From: Terriglobales bacterium | GTDB taxonomy: Bacteria; Acidobacteriota; Terriglobia; Terriglobales; Acidobacteriaceae | DNA length: 64,000 nt | Direction: 5' to 3' | Assembly (NCBI GenBank): GCA_035624455.1 | Contig: DASPRM010000153.1 | Span: forward strand, 1-64,000 | Shown: positions 9,011-21,458 of the stretch, in pieces | Position numbering within the stretch: the stretch's first letter is position 1 | Layout of the letters: the number at the start of each line of letters is the position of its first letter | The notes under the pieces: generated by a model | Told to the model about the DNA's origin: nothing | Seen by the model: only the letters and a program-made list of their open reading frames with translations | Databases searched by the model: none | Program-made: the position numbers and the translations under genes

Positions 9011-9487
9011 ATGACGAATGAACATCATATCGTCGGCTTCCGCATCGGAGCAGAAAGCTTTGGCCTCCCAATCTCTCTTGTGCACGAGATCGTGCGCGTT
9101 CCTGAAATCACTGCCGTACCGGAATCGCCGGACTTCGTAGAGGGTGTCATCAATCTGCGTGGCAAGATCATTCCCGTGGTGGATCTGCGAAAGCGGTTTG
9201 GCGAAGTCAAAACTGTTCCCAATAAGAAGAATCGTGTGATTGTGGTAGAGCTGAATGGCAAGCTGGTTGGTCTGGTGGTCGATGCTGCTTCTGAGGTATT
9301 GAAGCTGGCGGCCTCCGCGGTTGAACCTCCTCCCCAGATATTCGAGGAAAACGAACTTAACTACGTCACAGGAGTGGGCAAGCTCGATCAGCGGCTGATC
9401 ATTTTGGTGGACTTGCAAAAAATCCTGCAGCGCGGAGATCTGCACCGCCTAGGCGAATTGGACAAGGCGCCGGGGACCACGGCGTAG
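9011..9487 (+). CDS. cheW: Chemotaxis coupling protein CheW
   Basis: 158 residues, one CheW domain. Typical elements are visible: FRIGAESFGLPISLVHEI at the start of the first barrel, EGVINLRGKIIPVVDLRKRFG in the middle and VGKLDQRLIILVDLQKIL near the end. It links the receptor tip to CheA. It lies 11 bases after the MCP gene and 66 bases before cheR, all on one strand, so it almost certainly belongs to the same transcript. Confidence 0.95.
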   Translation: MTNEHHIVGFRIGAESFGLPISLVHEIVRVPEITAVPESPDFVEGVINLRGKIIPVVDLRKRFGEVKTVPNKKNRVIVVELNGKLVGLVVDAASEVLKLAASAVEPPPQIFEENELNYVTGVGKLDQRLIILVDLQKILQRGDLHRLGELDKAPGTTA

Positions 9488-9553
9488 AGGCAGCACAAAT
9501 GCCAGCATGCGGTTAGGCTGGCACTGGTGGCAAAAAGAGATTGCGAGTAAGGC

Positions 9554-10453
9554 ATGGCAACCGCGTCAATCCAGCTGACCGAACCGGAACTGAAACTTCT
9601 GCAGACACTCGTCTATCAGGAGTGCGGGATGTACTTCGACGAGCGCCGCGCCCATTTTCTTCAGGATCGTCTGCAACGCCGCCTGCGGGCCTGTCGGCTG
9701 GATTCTTTCTACAGCTACTACCGCCTGCTCACAAGCAGAGATGGGAAGGCCGAGTTAGCGGCCTTACTGGAAATTCTCACCGTCAACGAGACCAGTTTCT
9801 TTCGCAATAAACCGCAGCTGGAGCTGTTCCAGAAGGTGGTGCTGGAAGAAATCCTGCATCGCAAGCAGGAGCGCCGCGATTGGACTCTGCGGGTGTGGAG
9901 TGCGGGATGCTCCACCGGCCAGGAGCCGTACACCTTAGCTATGCAGGTTGCCGACGCCCTGGCTTATTACTATTTGCGGAATCCCTTGCCCTTCGATATG
10001 CCCACACCGAAGCCGCTGATTCCTCCGCCCTGGCGGGTGGAGATCGTGGCTTCCGACATCAGCTACGCTGCCCTGCGCACTGCACAACAGGCTGTTTATT
10101 CCGAGGTGCAGATGGAGCCGGTGGACTACATGTTTCGCCTGCGCTACTTCGACAAGCTGGGCGAGCAGTACTCCGTCAAACGGGCGGTGCGTGATGTAGT
10201 TCACTTCGACTTCCATAACCTCAAGACCGAGTACCTTCCCCAAAACAACGACGTGATCTTCTGCCGTAACGTGATGATCTATTTCGACGAGGCAGAACAG
10301 AAGAGGCTGATTGAGAAGTTCTATCGTTGTTTGAACCGCGACGGCTATCTTTTTGTTGGCCACGCTGAAAGCCTCTTTGGCCTCACTGAACGCTTCCGCA
10401 TGCTCCATCAGAACAACGGCACCGCGTACCAGAAAATCGAGGTGGAGATGTGA
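9554..10453 (+). CDS. cheR: Chemotaxis protein methyltransferase CheR
   Basis: 299 residues. The N-terminal helical CheR_N domain (about 10-65) is followed by the SAM-binding methyltransferase domain, with NETSFFRN, the SAM-binding motif VWSAGCSTGQEPY (near 115-130), the ASDIS acidic loop and VIFCRNVMIYFD near the end. It methylates glutamates in the receptor coiled coil, working against CheB. Its TGA overlaps the GTG of cheA by four bases (ATGTGA), indicating translational coupling. The catalytic domain is complete and shows no truncation. Confidence 0.95.
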   Translation: MATASIQLTEPELKLLQTLVYQECGMYFDERRAHFLQDRLQRRLRACRLDSFYSYYRLLTSRDGKAELAALLEILTVNETSFFRNKPQLELFQKVVLEEILHRKQERRDWTLRVWSAGCSTGQEPYTLAMQVADALAYYYLRNPLPFDMPTPKPLIPPPWRVEIVASDISYAALRTAQQAVYSEVQMEPVDYMFRLRYFDKLGEQYSVKRAVRDVVHFDFHNLKTEYLPQNNDVIFCRNVMIYFDEAEQKRLIEKFYRCLNRDGYLFVGHAESLFGLTERFRMLHQNNGTAYQKIEVEM

Positions 10454-12594
10454 GCTTCTTCTCCGATGAACGGGCGGCCGAGTTGCGCGAGCTGTTCTTT
10501 GAAACGGCCCAGGAGCTTCTTCAGGTGTTGAACGAGCAGGGCCTCGAACTGGAGAAACGCCCTGCGGATGAGGAGGTGGTCCGCAACCTGCGAAGGACCG
10601 TCCACACCCTGAAGGGAGACTCCGCCGCCTGCGGCTTTCGTGAGCTCAGTGAGTTGGCACATGAACTGGAAGATGTGCTTACACCTGAAATGGCGGGGCG
10701 GGCAGGCACCGCTTTAGCGCAAGTCGTGCTGAGCGCAGCAGACATGTTTGATGCGCTCGCGGCGGCTTACCGTGGCAAGATGCAGCCCCCGAATGGCGAT
10801 CCCTTGCGCACTATGATTGCGCGGCTCGCCCAAAAGCCTGCCCCTGGCCGGCCAGAGAGTTCCCATCCAGCTTTTTCGTGGAGCGAGTACGAGCAACTGA
10901 CCATACAGAAGACTCTGGATAGCGGATCGCAGGTTTTCAATATTGCGGTCACCATCGACCCAGCTTGCCCTATGCCAGCTGCCGGAGCCCAACTGGTGCT
11001 GAACGTTTTGGGAACCAATGGCACGATCCTGGCGAGGCGTCCAGAGGAAGTAAGCGGCGAAGCTCCAGTCGAGCGTCTGGAAGTGGCTCTGTCCAGCGTT
11101 CACGCGGCAGATTGGCTCGAAGGCAAATGCAAAATCCCGACCGTCGTCGAGCGAGTGTTCGTTCGCCCCTGGACTGCTGATGTCAATGCGCAGCCCCCTC
11201 GTGAGGCACTTGCGCGCGAAGATCTTCTGGAGATCGCTACCCAGAAACCCAGCCATCACCCCAGCACTTTCAGTCTCGATCCTGAGGATTCGATTTTGGC
11301 AATCACTGATCGCGGCGTTGCTGCCGTAGATCTCCAGCCCGCTCCCGTTTCAGAAACTACCTTGCGCGTCGACGCGGAGCGCATCGACGCAGTGATGAAC
11401 CTGGTAGGGGAGCTGATCATTGGCAAATCTATGCTGCACCAGGCGGTAATGGAATTCGGCCGCCGTTTTCCCAAGGATCCCCTGCACACCCGGTTCAGCG
11501 ATGCAATGTCGCACCAGGCGCAAATGCTGAATTCCCTGCAACGCTCCGTAATGAAGATCCGCATGGTCCCAGTCGAGCAGTTGTTCCGCCGGCTACCCCG
11601 GATTATCCGCGACACTGCCAAACGCTGCGGCAAAGAAGTGGAAATGCGTGTCTCGGGCCAGGAAACAGATCTGGACAAGAGCATTCTGGACGCGCTGGCA
11701 GAACCGCTCACCCATTTGGTTCGCAACGCCGTAGACCATGGCATTGAGTTGCCGCAGGAACGCGAAGCCGCCGGGAAAACTCCTCGCGGCACGATTCAGC
11801 TGGACGCATATCATCAGGCAAACCACGTAGTGATCGAAGTTACAGATGATGGCGCCGGCATTGACCCGCAAAGAGTGGTCGCCAAGGCCGTGGAGCGCGG
11901 TGTGATCTCGCCCGAAGACGCCGCGCGGCTCTCTGAACAGCAGAAGCTTGAACTGATTTTTGAATCCGGGTTCAGCACTGCCGAGGAGGTCACAGAGGTC
12001 TCCGGCCGTGGCGTGGGCATGGATATTGTTCGCAGTGTCCTCAGCCGCCTGAAGGGGGAGGTCTCGATTGAGAGCAAGATAGGGCGTGGCACCACTTTCC
12101 GTCTCACCCTGCCGCTCACGCTGGCAATCATCAAGGCTCTGCTGTTTCGGGTCGGAAAGCAGATCTACGCCGTTCCTTTGGGAGCGGTAGTCGAGATCAC
12201 CCGTGCCGGGGAAGAGGACGTCCATCTCGTCGAAAACCAGGAAGTGCTGCGCCTGCGTGAACAACTGGTCACGCTGATCCGCCTGAGTCGCATGCGCGGA
12301 GGGGAAACGTGCCCACAAAAATCGCGCTTCTTTCTGGTCGTGGTGGCCGTAGGCGATCACAAATTCGGGTTAATCGTGGATCAACTCGTGGGCGAGGACG
12401 AGTTGGTGATCAAGGCGCTGGACGATCATCTGGTCGCCACTGAATTGGTCAGCGGGGCTTCCATCCTCGGCGACGGCACCGTGGTCTTAATCCTCAACCT
12501 GCAAGCAGTAGTAGAGAAGCTAGGCCGGACAACCGCTTCACAGATCATGGCTTCACGCGTCGCCAATCCCAAGCGGGTGGAGGCTTCTGCATGA
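10450..12594 (+). CDS. cheA: Chemotaxis histidine kinase CheA
   Basis: 714 residues. The N-terminal Hpt domain carries His52 in TVHTLKGDSAACG. A linker of about 200 residues that could hold a response-regulator docking domain follows, then the dimerisation helices (LRVDAERIDAVMNLVGEL), the ATPase domain with HLVRNAVDHG, DDGAGID and GRGVGMD, and a C-terminal CheW-like domain. The protein autophosphorylates on His52 and passes phosphate to CheB and the downstream CheY-like receiver. The GTG start overlaps the cheR stop and the TGA overlaps the ATG of cheB (ATGA), so cheR-cheA-cheB are translated as a coupled block. Confidence 0.96.
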   Translation: MSFFSDERAAELRELFFETAQELLQVLNEQGLELEKRPADEEVVRNLRRTVHTLKGDSAACGFRELSELAHELEDVLTPEMAGRAGTALAQVVLSAADMFDALAAAYRGKMQPPNGDPLRTMIARLAQKPAPGRPESSHPAFSWSEYEQLTIQKTLDSGSQVFNIAVTIDPACPMPAAGAQLVLNVLGTNGTILARRPEEVSGEAPVERLEVALSSVHAADWLEGKCKIPTVVERVFVRPWTADVNAQPPREALAREDLLEIATQKPSHHPSTFSLDPEDSILAITDRGVAAVDLQPAPVSETTLRVDAERIDAVMNLVGELIIGKSMLHQAVMEFGRRFPKDPLHTRFSDAMSHQAQMLNSLQRSVMKIRMVPVEQLFRRLPRIIRDTAKRCGKEVEMRVSGQETDLDKSILDALAEPLTHLVRNAVDHGIELPQEREAAGKTPRGTIQLDAYHQANHVVIEVTDDGAGIDPQRVVAKAVERGVISPEDAARLSEQQKLELIFESGFSTAEEVTEVSGRGVGMDIVRSVLSRLKGEVSIESKIGRGTTFRLTLPLTLAIIKALLFRVGKQIYAVPLGAVVEITRAGEEDVHLVENQEVLRLREQLVTLIRLSRMRGGETCPQKSRFFLVVVAVGDHKFGLIVDQLVGEDELVIKALDDHLVATELVSGASILGDGTVVLILNLQAVVEKLGRTTASQIMASRVANPKRVEASA

Positions 12595-13685
12595 AGAACA
12601 CGGTGCGAGTGCTGGTCGTCGACGATTCCGCGCTGATGCGCAAGCTTTTGCCGCAAATCATCGAGCGCGATAGCTCGATCCAGGTGGTTGGGACCGCCAT
12701 GGATGGCGCATTTGCCTTGGACAAGATTCCAGAGCTCAAGCCACAAGTGGTCACTTTGGATCTAGACATGCCGCGCATGGATGGCATGGAGGCCTTGCGC
12801 GTCATCGCCCGCAAATATCGTCTGCCGGCGATTGTGGTCAGTGCCCATACCACGGAAGGGGCGGCAGCTACATTTCGCGCCCTCGCCATGGGGGCCTTCG
12901 ACTTCGTGGCCAAACCGAAGAACACGACCACCGACATGGACGCGATCGCCAAGGACCTGATTGCCAAGATCAAGGTGGCGGCCAAGAGCCAGCCGGTTCA
13001 GTTGCCGGAGCCTCGGTTGGTTGCACGCGGACCCAAGGCACAGCGTCTCAATGCAGCCACGCGGGTCATTGCTATCGGCGTTTCGACTGGCGGACCCCAG
13101 GCTCTGCAGTATGTACTGACACAGCTGCCGCCAGATTTCTCTGGGGCAATTCTGATTGTCCAGCACATGCCAGAGGGCTTCACCGGTATGTTTGCGCGAC
13201 GTCTGGACGAACTCTGCGCCATTGAAGTGCGCGAGGCGCGCTCCGGCGACTTGTTGTTAGGGGGTCGGGCGCTCATCTGTCCGGGAAATCGCCATATGCG
13301 TGTGAAACGGATGCCGCTGGGAGATGTGGTGGTGCTCAGCGATGGAGAACGCATGAACGGGCACCGTCCCTCAGTTGATGTGCTGTTTCACTCCCTGGCG
13401 CAGGAATTGCGCGAAATCGGGATTGGAGTGCTCATGACCGGCATGGGAGAGGATGGCGCCGATGGCATGCGGGCGATTAAGTTGGCGGGCGGATTCACGA
13501 TCGCGCAATCCGAAGAATCGTGTGTGGTGTACGGCATGCCACGAATGGCGGTGGAGCGAGGGTACGCGATGCGCGTGGTGAATCTGGAAGGCCTGGTGAG
13601 TACTCTGCAGGCCCAATGCAACAACAATCGAGTGCACATTCATGCCGACCCGGTCGGCGAAAGTGCGGGAGATTCTAGACATTAG
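12591..13685 (+). CDS. cheB: Chemotaxis protein-glutamate methylesterase/deamidase CheB
   Basis: 364 residues. Receiver domain at 1-125 with acidic pocket D11-D12, phospho-acceptor Asp57 and Lys108 in VAKPK. A linker leads to the methylesterase domain (155-350), whose catalytic triad is visible as Ser165 in GVSTGGP, His192 in VQHMPEG and Asp288 in GMGEDGADG. It removes methyl groups from the receptor when phosphorylated by CheA. The ATG overlaps the cheA stop by four bases. Forty bases separate it from the next real start, although a longer frame of the following gene overlaps its end. Confidence 0.96.
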   Translation: MKNTVRVLVVDDSALMRKLLPQIIERDSSIQVVGTAMDGAFALDKIPELKPQVVTLDLDMPRMDGMEALRVIARKYRLPAIVVSAHTTEGAAATFRALAMGAFDFVAKPKNTTTDMDAIAKDLIAKIKVAAKSQPVQLPEPRLVARGPKAQRLNAATRVIAIGVSTGGPQALQYVLTQLPPDFSGAILIVQHMPEGFTGMFARRLDELCAIEVREARSGDLLLGGRALICPGNRHMRVKRMPLGDVVVLSDGERMNGHRPSVDVLFHSLAQELREIGIGVLMTGMGEDGADGMRAIKLAGGFTIAQSEESCVVYGMPRMAVERGYAMRVVNLEGLVSTLQAQCNNNRVHIHADPVGESAGDSRH

Positions 13686-13725
13686 CAGAGGAAGTTCTGG
13701 GACCACTAAGGGGTCGGAGGAAGGT

Positions 13726-14169
13726 ATGGAACAATTTGCCCCACTGATTCGAAGCAAGGACATGCGGCCCATCCGCTACCTTGTCGTCGATGACTCCGTC
13801 TTTGCGCGCAAGAACCTGGCACGCATGATTGAGTCCTTCGGTGGACAACTGGCGGGGGAAGCGGGGGATGGCTGTACCGCCATCGCCGAGTACGGGCGCA
13901 CTCAGCCCGATGTAGTGCTGATGGACATTACGATGCCGCAGATGGAGGGCATCGAGGCGGCCGAACGAATTGTGCGCCAAAGTCCCGAGGCGCGCATCGT
14001 GATGGTTTCCTCGGTGGGCTATCAGGAAAACATTATTGCCGCTCTGCAAAAGGGAGCGCGCCATTTTGTCCAGAAACCGGTGAAGCCCGAAGTGCTCTAC
14101 GAGGTGATCAAATACGTTCTGGGTGATGAAGCCACGGTGGGCGCTGTGCCCGCGGGAGTATCCCAGTGA
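13726..14169 (+). CDS. CheY-like response regulator
   Basis: 147 residues with one receiver domain. I chose the ATG at 13726 because GGAGGAAGG lies directly before it; the longer frame from 13642 overlaps cheB and has no site. The acidic pair D22-D23, phospho-acceptor Asp67 in VLMDITMPQ, the switch Ser in MVSSVGY and Lys near 115 in VQKPVKP are present. It is the natural diffusible output of this cluster. Whether it addresses a flagellar motor, a type IV pilus or another target cannot be told from the window, which holds no motility genes. Its stop overlaps the start of cheX, the likely phosphatase for it. Confidence 0.9.
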   Translation: MEQFAPLIRSKDMRPIRYLVVDDSVFARKNLARMIESFGGQLAGEAGDGCTAIAEYGRTQPDVVLMDITMPQMEGIEAAERIVRQSPEARIVMVSSVGYQENIIAALQKGARHFVQKPVKPEVLYEVIKYVLGDEATVGAVPAGVSQ

Positions 14170-14663
14170 AGATGGATCTAATCCAGCCGTTTATCAATGC
14201 AACCGATGCGGTTTTGGCTGAGACCTTGCAGTGCACCACCAGCATTGGCACAGTCAGCATGGAGCAAGAGGCATATTGTCTGCATGGAGTGGCCGCGCTG
14301 ATCGTTGTTCAGGGTGACATCGAGGGTCGCATCATTTTCGACCTCGAGCCCGAAGCGGCCAAGGCCGTGACCCAACGTCTGGCAGGCGGCAACGATTCCG
14401 CAGCCACGCCGGAGATGGTGCGCGAGGCGATCTGCGAATTAGCTAACCAGGTAATCGGCAATGCAGTCACGGTGCTGAACGACCAGGGCTTCCACTTCAA
14501 AGTTCATCCTCCCGAGATCCACACTGCAAGCCATGGTGGGGCCAGTTCGGAGGATACGGAAGCCCTAGTCATGTGTTTTGATACCAGCAGCGGCATGATC
14601 TTCATGAATATTGCTATGCGGTATAACCACCGCCGAAAACATGACTCCGTGATGGTGGGTTGA
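14166..14663 (+). CDS. cheX: CheX-type CheY-P phosphatase
   Basis: 165 residues of the CheC/CheX/FliY phosphatase fold. The signature helix contains E91-L-A-N94 within EAICELANQVIGNA, the ExxN arrangement that in CheX hydrolyses the aspartyl phosphate of CheY. Only one such helix is present, as in CheX and unlike two-site CheC. The GTG at 14166 overlaps the receiver-gene stop and has GGAG seven bases upstream; an ATG two codons later is the alternative. As last gene of the cluster it would reset the CheY-like receiver. No CheD or CheZ gene is nearby. Confidence 0.88.
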   Translation: MKMDLIQPFINATDAVLAETLQCTTSIGTVSMEQEAYCLHGVAALIVVQGDIEGRIIFDLEPEAAKAVTQRLAGGNDSAATPEMVREAICELANQVIGNAVTVLNDQGFHFKVHPPEIHTASHGGASSEDTEALVMCFDTSSGMIFMNIAMRYNHRRKHDSVMVG

Positions 14664-14695: not shown

Positions 14696-15127
14696 CTAAG
14701 CCACTCGATGCTGCTTAAAATGCAAGCCCTTCCGGTATAGTCCGTCGCTTCCCACATCAAAGACCCGGTTATAACGAGCGCGGAAATTCTCCTGGGCCGC
14801 GCTGGCCGCAAGCTCAATCAGTTCCTCTTCGGAAAAGTGTCGCCGCAACTCAGCAAAAAGCTCATCGCTCACGTTCGACGGAGTATCGGCCATGGCGTCT
14901 GCCATGCGCAACAATGCAGCTTGCGCCGCGGTGAAGCCATCGAGATTCCCGTCGCGAATAGTGGCGATCTCGTCATCGCTCAAGCCATACATTCTGCCAC
15001 CGGCAGAATTGGCATCGATTCAGAACGGACACCCCACACGTAGCCGGTTGCACTGCAGCGAATCCCGTAGGACAACCTCACCCCCAAACACCGCGCCGCC
15101 CGCCAGCATCGACATCGCGGTCCACAT
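14696..15127 (-). CDS. Putative selenoprotein, AhpD/carboxymuconolactone decarboxylase-like
   Basis: Reading from the ATG at 15127 gives 143 residues interrupted only by one in-frame UGA at 15020-15022. Around it the frame reads VGCPF-U-IDANSA: the UGA stands where this redox family has the second Cys of CxxC, making Cys33-P-F-Sec36. Downstream, GLSDDEI, FTAAQAALL, FSEEELIEL and NFRARYNRVFDV fit the AhpD-like/CMD alpha-helical fold (PF02627). A perfect eight-pair stem with a GGU loop begins ten bases after the UGA, matching bacterial SECIS rules. The gene starts five bases after the stop of the upstream beta-propeller gene, so both are probably co-transcribed. It is somewhat shorter than most relatives at the N-terminus. 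The alternative is a nonsense-mutated gene whose 3' part begins at the ATG at 14992. Confidence 0.7.
14991..15009 (-). promoter_or_regulatory. Candidate bacterial SECIS element
   Basis: On the minus strand, ATTCTGCC (15009-15002) pairs perfectly with GGCAGAAT (14998-14991) around the three-base loop GGT. The loop starts 19 bases after the in-frame UGA (15020-15022). Published rules for bacterial SECIS elements ask for a small apical loop with G in its first two positions, a stem of at least four pairs and 16-37 bases between UGA and loop; all three hold. It would bind SelB charged with Sec-tRNA. It lies inside the coding frame, as bacterial SECIS elements do. Confidence 0.68.
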
Positions 15128-15132
15128 TCTTG

Positions 15133-16338
15133 CTACTGCACGACCAGGAAAACTGGGCTCGGCGAAGCAGAGGGAACGGTGGCCGCGACCGTGTCATCGG
15201 TGGTGCGAATGACCGAGATGTTGTTGGAATCGCGGTTGGGCGTGAACACCTTGGTGCTGTCAGGGGAGGAATCGATCCAGTAGGGCGTGGTTCCCACGGG
15301 GATCGTCTTTCGAAACGCCAGGCTGATGGCGTCGAATACGGAAACTGTGCCGGCAATGGAGTTGGCAACGTAGAAGCGAGTGCCATCAGACAGGGCTGTC
15401 ACAGCACGCGGACCTGCATCGGTATTCAAGGTAGTAATCAGGGTGGGAATTGTAGTTCCCGCATTAAAGACGCTCACAGTATTGGAAGCAAAATTAGCTA
15501 CATAGAGGCGGGTTAAGCGCGGATCGTAAATCACCTCGGTTGCTCCGCTGCCAACATTGAGTGTGCCAATCACAGTATCTACGTTGGGATCGATCACCGA
15601 AACGGTCCCGCTTCCCTGGTTCAGTACGAACAACAGCGGGGTCGGAGACATGACAGCCCAAACTGGCGAAGAACCTACCGTGATCGTCGTTTGTATGGAG
15701 TTGTCAGAGGTATTTATGACAGTAACTGTGCCGCTATCCTTGTTGAGGCAGTAAACTTTCTTACCATCAGGCGTGATGGCTAGCGCCACCGGATTATTTC
15801 CCACAGGAACCACCGCGGTGGCCGCTTGAGTGAGCCCGAGTGAACTGAGAGCTGCCACTGTGTTGTTGCCCGCGTTGGCCACGTAGGCGCCAGTTCCGGC
15901 AGTCAACACAAACACCGGTCCCGAACCTGTCGCCAGTGCCACCGTTGAAGGATCAGTGGTTATTAAGCGCGGAGAATAGGTTGTAACCGTATCGTCCACA
16001 TTATTGACTACAAACGCTAAGGATTGATCCGAACGCAGGGCAGCGTGTACAGGATTCCTTCCTACCTGACGGTTCAACACGTTGCTATCGCCTGAGACAT
16101 CCAGATTGTTCGTAGTCCCAGATGCGCCTGCATTGTTGTTTACCACCACTACCGTATGAGTTTCCGCTGGGTTAGGAGTTGGCGTCAGGATTGGCAGCGC
16201 AACTGGGCGGAAAGTATCCCCACACCCGGTTAAGAGACACACCAGCAATAACAGAATCACCACCACCGCCGCCGAATTCGGCCGGTTAAGTCTGCAGGTG
16301 CAAGAAAGCAAGGAGGCCACTTCTTTGACTTTGTCCAT
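15133..16338 (-). CDS. Exported YVTN-repeat beta-propeller lipoprotein
   Basis: 401 residues. The N-terminus has a long hydrophobic stretch (about 22-38) ending in a lipobox LLTGC, so the mature protein is probably a lipoprotein. The rest consists of about seven repeats of the YVTN/YncE type, such as VYCLNKDSGTVTVINTSDN and LYVANFASNTVSVFN, with recurring NxxSNTVSV turns, folding as a seven-bladed beta-propeller. Ligand unknown. It is directly upstream of the UGA-containing AhpD-like gene on the same strand, with a five-base gap, and follows a second propeller gene. The functional connection is open. Confidence 0.88.
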   Translation of the reverse strand: MDKVKEVASLLSCTCRLNRPNSAAVVVILLLLVCLLTGCGDTFRPVALPILTPTPNPAETHTVVVVNNNAGASGTTNNLDVSGDSNVLNRQVGRNPVHAALRSDQSLAFVVNNVDDTVTTYSPRLITTDPSTVALATGSGPVFVLTAGTGAYVANAGNNTVAALSSLGLTQAATAVVPVGNNPVALAITPDGKKVYCLNKDSGTVTVINTSDNSIQTTITVGSSPVWAVMSPTPLLFVLNQGSGTVSVIDPNVDTVIGTLNVGSGATEVIYDPRLTRLYVANFASNTVSVFNAGTTIPTLITTLNTDAGPRAVTALSDGTRFYVANSIAGTVSVFDAISLAFRKTIPVGTTPYWIDSSPDSTKVFTPNRDSNNISVIRTTDDTVAATVPSASPSPVFLVVQ

Positions 16339-20335: not shown

Positions 20336-21458
20336 CTAGGCAGGGGCTGACACCCCGGCCTGACCCTCACCCCGCCGCATCAGGAGATAAGCACGAATGA
20401 ATGGCTGCAAGTCGCCGTCCAGCACGCGATCCACGTCACCTATCTCCACCTTGGTGCGATGATCCTTCACCAGCCGGTAGGGAGCAAGGACATAGGAGCG
20501 AATCTGGGAACCAAAGTCTATGTCTAGTTTGGACTCCTCGATCTTCTTGCTTTCCGCCCGCTTCTTCTCCATCTCATATTCATAGAGTTTCGAGCGCAAG
20601 ATGCTCATCGCGCGATCGCGATTTTTGTGTTGTGAGCGCTCGTTCTGGCAACTTACCACTATGCCCGTGGGCAGATGGGTGATGCGCACAGCGGAATCCG
20701 TGGTGTTTACGTGCTGTCCGCCGCGGCCTCCCGAACGATAAGTATCTACCCGCAAATCCTCCGGCTTAATCACAACTTCCACGCTTTCGTCGATTTCAGG
20801 GGAGACGAACACGCTGGCAAATGAAGTGTGGCGCCGCTTGGCCTGATCGAATGGCGAAATTCGCACTAGGCGATGCACGCCAATCTCGCTGCTCAGAAGC
20901 CCGTAGGCATACTCGCCCGAGATGGTGAAGGTGGCTGATTTAAGCCCCGCCTCTTCGCCGGGCTGATAATCATTCACGACCGCTTCGAATCCCTGTCGCT
21001 CAGCCCAGCGCAGATACATGCGCAGCAGCATGTCGGCCCAGTCCTGCGACTCTGTGCCGCCGGCCCCTGGGTGAATGGTCACGATTGCGTTCAGAGCGTC
21101 GTTAGGACCGGAAAGCAGCGTTTCGGTCTCCAGCCGATCCACTAGCGTTCGCAGGGCGTCGATCTCTCGCTTGAGATCTTCGTCAACCTGCTCGCCTTCG
21201 TGCGCGAGCTCAAAATATGTGCTGATTTCTCCATCGCGGCGCGCTAATTCTGCCTCAGTCGAGACAATGTCTGTGAGGCGCTTCCGTTCGCGCATCAGAC
21301 TCTGCGATTTCTGGGGATTGGACCAGATCGCCGGATCGGCAATCTGTTTTTCGAGTTCGCTTAGCTGGCGGTGGGCTTGGGTCGGGTCAAAGATACTCCC
21401 GCAGATCGCGCACTTTCTCCCGAAGGAGGGTATATTCCTGTTCCAGTTCCTCTACCAT
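20336..21458 (-). CDS. prfB: Peptide chain release factor 2, with programmed +1 frameshift
   Basis: The gene starts at the ATG at 21458 and reads 23 codons, MVEELEQEY to LREYL, before an in-frame UGA at 21387-21389. A +1 shift at CTT-TGA-C continues as LDPTQAHRQL and gives 373 residues, the normal RF2 length. The RF2-specific SPF tripeptide (RISPFDQAK) for UGA/UAA recognition and the GGQ motif (SGGRGGQHVNT) that triggers peptide release are present. Without the frameshift the frame would appear to start at 21295. The ATG overlaps the last base of the lnt stop codon (TGATG), so prfB is coupled to the lipoprotein acyltransferase gene. Confidence 0.96.
21386..21400 (-). promoter_or_regulatory. 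prfB: prfB programmed +1 frameshift site
   Basis: Minus strand: a Shine-Dalgarno-like GGGAG (21400-21396), then TAT, the slippery CTT, the UGA stop (21389-21387) and a following C. This is the classic autoregulatory signal: when RF2 is scarce the ribosome pauses at UGA-C and slips forward one base. The spacing between the internal Shine-Dalgarno and CTT agrees with the known element. Confidence 0.95.

Follow-up and report, generated by a model that had tools for sequence, protein, structure and literature searches.

A 5'-truncated AhpD-like selenoprotein gene, with its UGA codon and downstream hairpin, between cheX and beta-propeller genes of a Terriglobales genome

A gene fragment in a convergent intergenic gap

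The window (the whole 64,000-nt stretch of DNA that was analysed) carries on its plus strand, at 9011-14663, a compact chemotaxis cluster of CheW-, CheR-, CheA-, CheB-, CheY- and CheX-like genes. The last of these converges with a minus-strand beta-propeller gene, and the 469-bp gap between the two holds the fragment of interest. The features at the locus are:

14166-14663, plus strand: cheX-like gene, last in the chemotaxis cluster, convergent neighbour of the fragment
14696-15046, minus strand: 3' part of a COG2128/YciW-type AhpD-like CxxU selenoprotein gene, about 116 codons with the stop, delimited by homology to orthologues
14991-15009, minus strand: predicted bSECIS hairpin ATTCTGCC-GGT-GGCAGAAT, perfect 8 bp with a GGU loop
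15020-15022, minus strand: in-frame UGA where the CxxC redox motif has its second Cys (C-P-F-UGA-I-D-A-N), a UGA in all close homologues
15040-15049, minus strand: breakpoint, at which the alignment with intact orthologues loses homology in DNA and protein alike
15047-15132, minus strand: 86 nt without homology to the missing 5' half, giving 27 chance codons from an ATG at 15127
15133-16338, minus strand: YNCE/lactonase-like beta-propeller gene, with its stop codon 5 nt ahead of the fragment's ATG

The minus-strand frame 15127-14696 translates into 143 residues with a single TGA and a TAG stop, and a first-pass annotation had read it as one complete AhpD/CMD-like protein. Comparison with eight intact orthologues (181-190 aa, 71-84% amino acid identity to the window over the shared part, CxxU near residues 78-81) contradicts that reading: homology stops at about 15046, and about 74 N-terminal residues with four helices, the front two fifths of the gene, are absent from the window copy. 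The protein match to nearly all relatives begins at window residue 28-30, and the nucleotide match to orthologues begins at 15040-15055. When aligned with the orthologues, the 90 nt downstream of the breakpoint give z values of 10.6 to 15.6 and the 90 nt upstream give −1.6 to 1.3, like shuffled sequence; among the orthologues themselves this upstream stretch is 60-82% identical. A search of the host's own genome with an intact orthologue recovered residues 75-187 at the window locus, the only other match being a distant paralogue on contig C103, and the missing N-terminal part was found on no contig of this 97.7% complete genome. An N-terminus hidden by a frameshift or by distant homology was rejected because the upstream DNA aligns no better than shuffled sequence, and one in another upstream frame was rejected because that frame is the propeller gene. 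The 86-nt stretch has no further copy in the genome that would point to a repeat or IS origin, and it is probably the remainder of the former cheX/propeller intergenic region.

The truncation is also evident at the level of predicted structure. The AlphaFold model of an intact orthologue has a pLDDT of 91.3, with helices at 14-27, 32-37, 41-55 and 62-76 ahead of CxxU at 78-81. The model of the window ORF, built on an alignment with no real homology in the N-terminal part, has a pLDDT of 61.7, and residues 1-40 including the CxxU lie below 50. Pfam CMD matches the window frame over profile positions 37-83 of 84 only, with the CxxU present, and the window copy falls short of a full-length fold of about 170-200 aa with helices ahead of the motif.

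The UGA codon, its hairpin and the selenium machinery of the host

The hairpin begins ten bases past the UGA, with a UGA-to-loop spacing of 18 nt and a loop that opens with two Gs, and the folding energy of the 45 nt from the UGA is −18.2 kcal/mol. The published bSECIS model has a loop of 3-9 nt, a stem of 4-16 bp, a spacing of 16-37 nt, a G in the first two loop positions and an MFE of −7.5 kcal/mol or lower, and the window hairpin agrees with it (PMC13188914). Counting both strands, the window has 1970 TGA triplets, of which only 3 are accompanied by a perfect stem of at least 8 bp with such geometry.

We surveyed homologues in 398 genomes belonging to the same taxonomic family as the host. 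An internal TGA is present in the closest homologues, which number roughly 45 and are about 36-81% identical to the window sequence; those of Cys type were seen only at the low-identity end of the match list. The TGA stands at the same codon in 29/29 homologues inspected base by base, more than 20 homologues from related Acidobacteriota show both the UGA at the C-P-F-U codon and the same hairpin, and the window UGA aligns to the catalytic Cys of homologues. Codon usage in the stem was compared over 30 UGA sites, the window included. The Ser codon of the 5' arm is TCT in 28/29 sites, as against 7% of Ser codons elsewhere in the same genes, and the Arg codon of the 3' arm is AGA in 27/28, as against 2% of Arg codons elsewhere. 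Five of the eight stem pairs are invariant, and covariation is uninformative because the stem is nearly invariant; as read from these alignments, the conservation of the hairpin is supported by codon freezing and not by covariation. In two orthologues (L066 and L067) the usual TCTGCC/GGCAGA stem is gone and an alternative hairpin with a shifted 3' arm could form just past the UGA, possibly a case of bSECIS turnover.

The host genome encodes selA (a 500-aa frame) and selB (659 aa), and its tRNA-Sec is detected both by the Rfam model and by ARAGORN. Its selD (G000:C95:34543-35478, L078) has a single in-frame TGA, which suggests that the host selenophosphate synthetase is probably a selenoprotein itself. 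Contig C103 carries a second, intact-looking AhpD-like selenoprotein gene of another subfamily (G000:C103:24179-24661; about 1504-2031 of L077), with the motif N-R-C-H-Y-UGA-L-Q-H-H and a hairpin-like stretch past the UGA.

Stop-free Cys-type homologues abound in this family of genomes, and on a rival reading the UGA would be an accidental nonsense mutation of a Cys-type CMD gene, unrelated to selenium. This is scarcely credible, however, as the TGA is shared by the closest homologues, with the codon and the hairpin in place in those inspected, rare codons are frozen in the stem, the Sec machinery is complete, and the conserved UGA of the orthologues already contradicts it. Judged from sequence, the UGA and hairpin are a genuine selenocysteine signal of a known redox-protein family. 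The first-pass proposals that the UGA specifies Sec where CxxC has its second Cys and that the hairpin is a bSECIS are both upheld, the former by the homologues' UGAs at the same codon and the latter by the fit to the model and its retention in homologues. The sel genes and tRNA-Sec that this annotation had pointed to are all present, and the nearest relatives, which it had suggested comparing, have the UGA and the stem, not Cys.

Relationship to known AhpD-like selenoproteins

The assignment to an AhpD-like family holds, but the description of the selenoprotein as new does not: AhpD-like COG2128 selenoproteins were described in 2005 from Sargasso Sea data (PMC1088965) and in 2006 from bacterial genomes (PMC1794560), and AhpD-like CxxU entries appear in recent selenoprotein tables (PMC9312934; PMC13188914). 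The window copy shares with this COG2128 (YciW) CxxU family a Sec codon at the second CxxC position, a bSECIS directly downstream and, for the second half of the CMD profile, the CMD/AhpD fold of COG2128 type; it differs in lacking the N-terminal ~74 residues, and the intact orthologues make up an Acidobacteriota clade of their own.

The best curated match of the window sequence is NCBIfam NF053654 (GroundWater_YciW, "YciW-related (seleno)protein"; E = 2e-18), a model that covers relatives, and relatives have a UGA at the same place. The window scores 66.8 bits, under the curated cut-off of 310, over positions 76-179 of the 179-position profile. Because the highest-scoring relatives themselves stop at about 132 bits, with 0 of the 398 genomes above the cut-off, the Acidobacteriota clade is related to this equivalog and is not part of it, and on these profile scores the Acidobacteriota clades are not covered by the equivalog model. 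The AhpD-like/peroxidase-related structures 3c1l, 2prr and 2oyo and the debrominase Bmp8 (6ohi) have a fold like that of an intact orthologue (TM 0.78-0.88), but they carry Cys instead of Sec and are only about 17-21% identical; unlike them, the window ORF is unable to form the whole fold. By analogy with the Cys-x-x-Cys of AhpD-type proteins, the Cys-x-x-Sec of the intact orthologues is presumably a peroxide- or disulfide-reducing site.

UGA-type and Cys-type full-length AhpD/YciW homologues widely coexist among the 398 genomes of the family. The intact orthologues of the window copy occur patchily across genera, which suggests horizontal movement. Their neighbourhoods are unrelated to the cheX/propeller pair and, with the exception of the pair G268/G215, mostly unlike one another. 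What is added to the known family is a patchy, apparently horizontally moving Acidobacteriota clade of CxxU AhpD-like selenoproteins.

Origin and coding state of the fragment

The cheX and propeller genes are convergent neighbours in many relatives, with gaps of 28-138 bp in the nine that were measured, and no AhpD gene lies beside the pair in the relative loci fetched. Without the ~350-nt fragment the window gap would be about 118 bp, inside the relatives' range. The joined flanks are too diverged from the relatives' gaps for a base-by-base empty site, so that the empty site is defined by gene order and spacing. Of terminal repeats, the insertion shows one 9-nt inverted repeat (14705-14713/15104-15112), which is about chance level in 541 nt; no relative was found among viral contigs, and plasmid records give only matches below 60% identity.

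It is very probable that the fragment is a 5'-truncated, recently captured selenoprotein pseudogene whose recoding signal still looks functional. A truncated copy of about 350 nt, from the codons R-V-G-C-P-F-U to the stop, would have entered the short gap between the convergent cheX and beta-propeller genes by illegitimate recombination, leaving behind its start codon, its ribosome-binding site and the four helices ahead of the redox motif, and keeping its UGA and bSECIS intact. With both retained, SelB and Sec-tRNA could still read the UGA as Sec in any translation of this region, such as might follow from readthrough out of the propeller mRNA that reaches the chance ATG at 15127. Half of the CMD domain would be missing from the resulting 143-residue chimera, which is most likely non-functional.

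The host assembly has 166 contigs and is probably metagenome-derived, and another piece of this gene is abnormally placed in a different metagenome assembly; both facts are in keeping with an artefact in which the gene is intact elsewhere in the true genome and the fragment was misjoined here. We nevertheless regard this as very unlikely. The contig around the fragment is 101 kb long, and the genes on either side are convergently paired in many relatives; since the flanking genes are this ancestral pair, an artefact would need two false joins that preserve the ancestral synteny. Moreover, no other contig carries the missing 5' half. The second fragment (L118:2996-3180, 'Acidobacteria bacterium isolate gp22 AA3') is shorter, spanning residues 69-128 (60 codons), is 88% identical and without the UGA, and adjoins an FAD-oxidoreductase-like ORF; it may be either a remnant or an assembly artefact.

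The remaining frame of the window copy shows no sign of decay, with no frameshift and no further stop, and its pN/pS against orthologues is 0.11-0.20, compared with a mean of 0.19 for the intact genes among themselves. The undecayed frame indicates either that the truncation happened recently or that selection still acts on the fragment, and we consider a chimera still in use less likely than a recent truncation. The former would be a functional shortened selenoprotein, in which translation of the 143-aa ORF is coupled to that of the propeller gene, Sec is inserted at the UGA and a new 27-residue N-terminus replaces the helices. The intact bSECIS, the host Sec machinery and the conserved coding pattern of the fragment speak for it, and the ATG 5 nt past the upstream stop makes translational coupling possible. 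It is unlikely all the same, as four helices are lost, including one that packs before the redox motif, the predicted structure is disordered across the active site, the new N-terminus has neither homology to the orthologues' N-terminus nor a second genomic copy, and no promoter-like site or obvious ribosome-binding site was found for the 143-aa ORF. A newborn chimeric mini-selenoprotein, in which a fragment captured together with its Sec codon and bSECIS gained a start beside the upstream stop and is translated by coupling, is in our view quite improbable. Through coupled translation, the ORF might yield the 143-residue product when the UGA is decoded and a 35-residue peptide when it is not.

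If the fragment is a captured pseudogene, as we favor, it shows how genome scans can be misled: finding a perfect UGA and bSECIS is no proof of a working gene, because a fragment carries the recoding signal along, and predictors based on UGA and SECIS could count such fragments as selenoproteins. To our knowledge, bacterial selenoprotein remnants have seldom been described. Elsewhere in the window, prfB (release factor 2; 20336 to about 21458, minus strand) has the classic programmed +1 frameshift, with the site R-E-Y-L CTT TGA C at 21392 and the frame continuing as F-D-P-T-Q; simple gene callers would give only its 319-aa 3' part.
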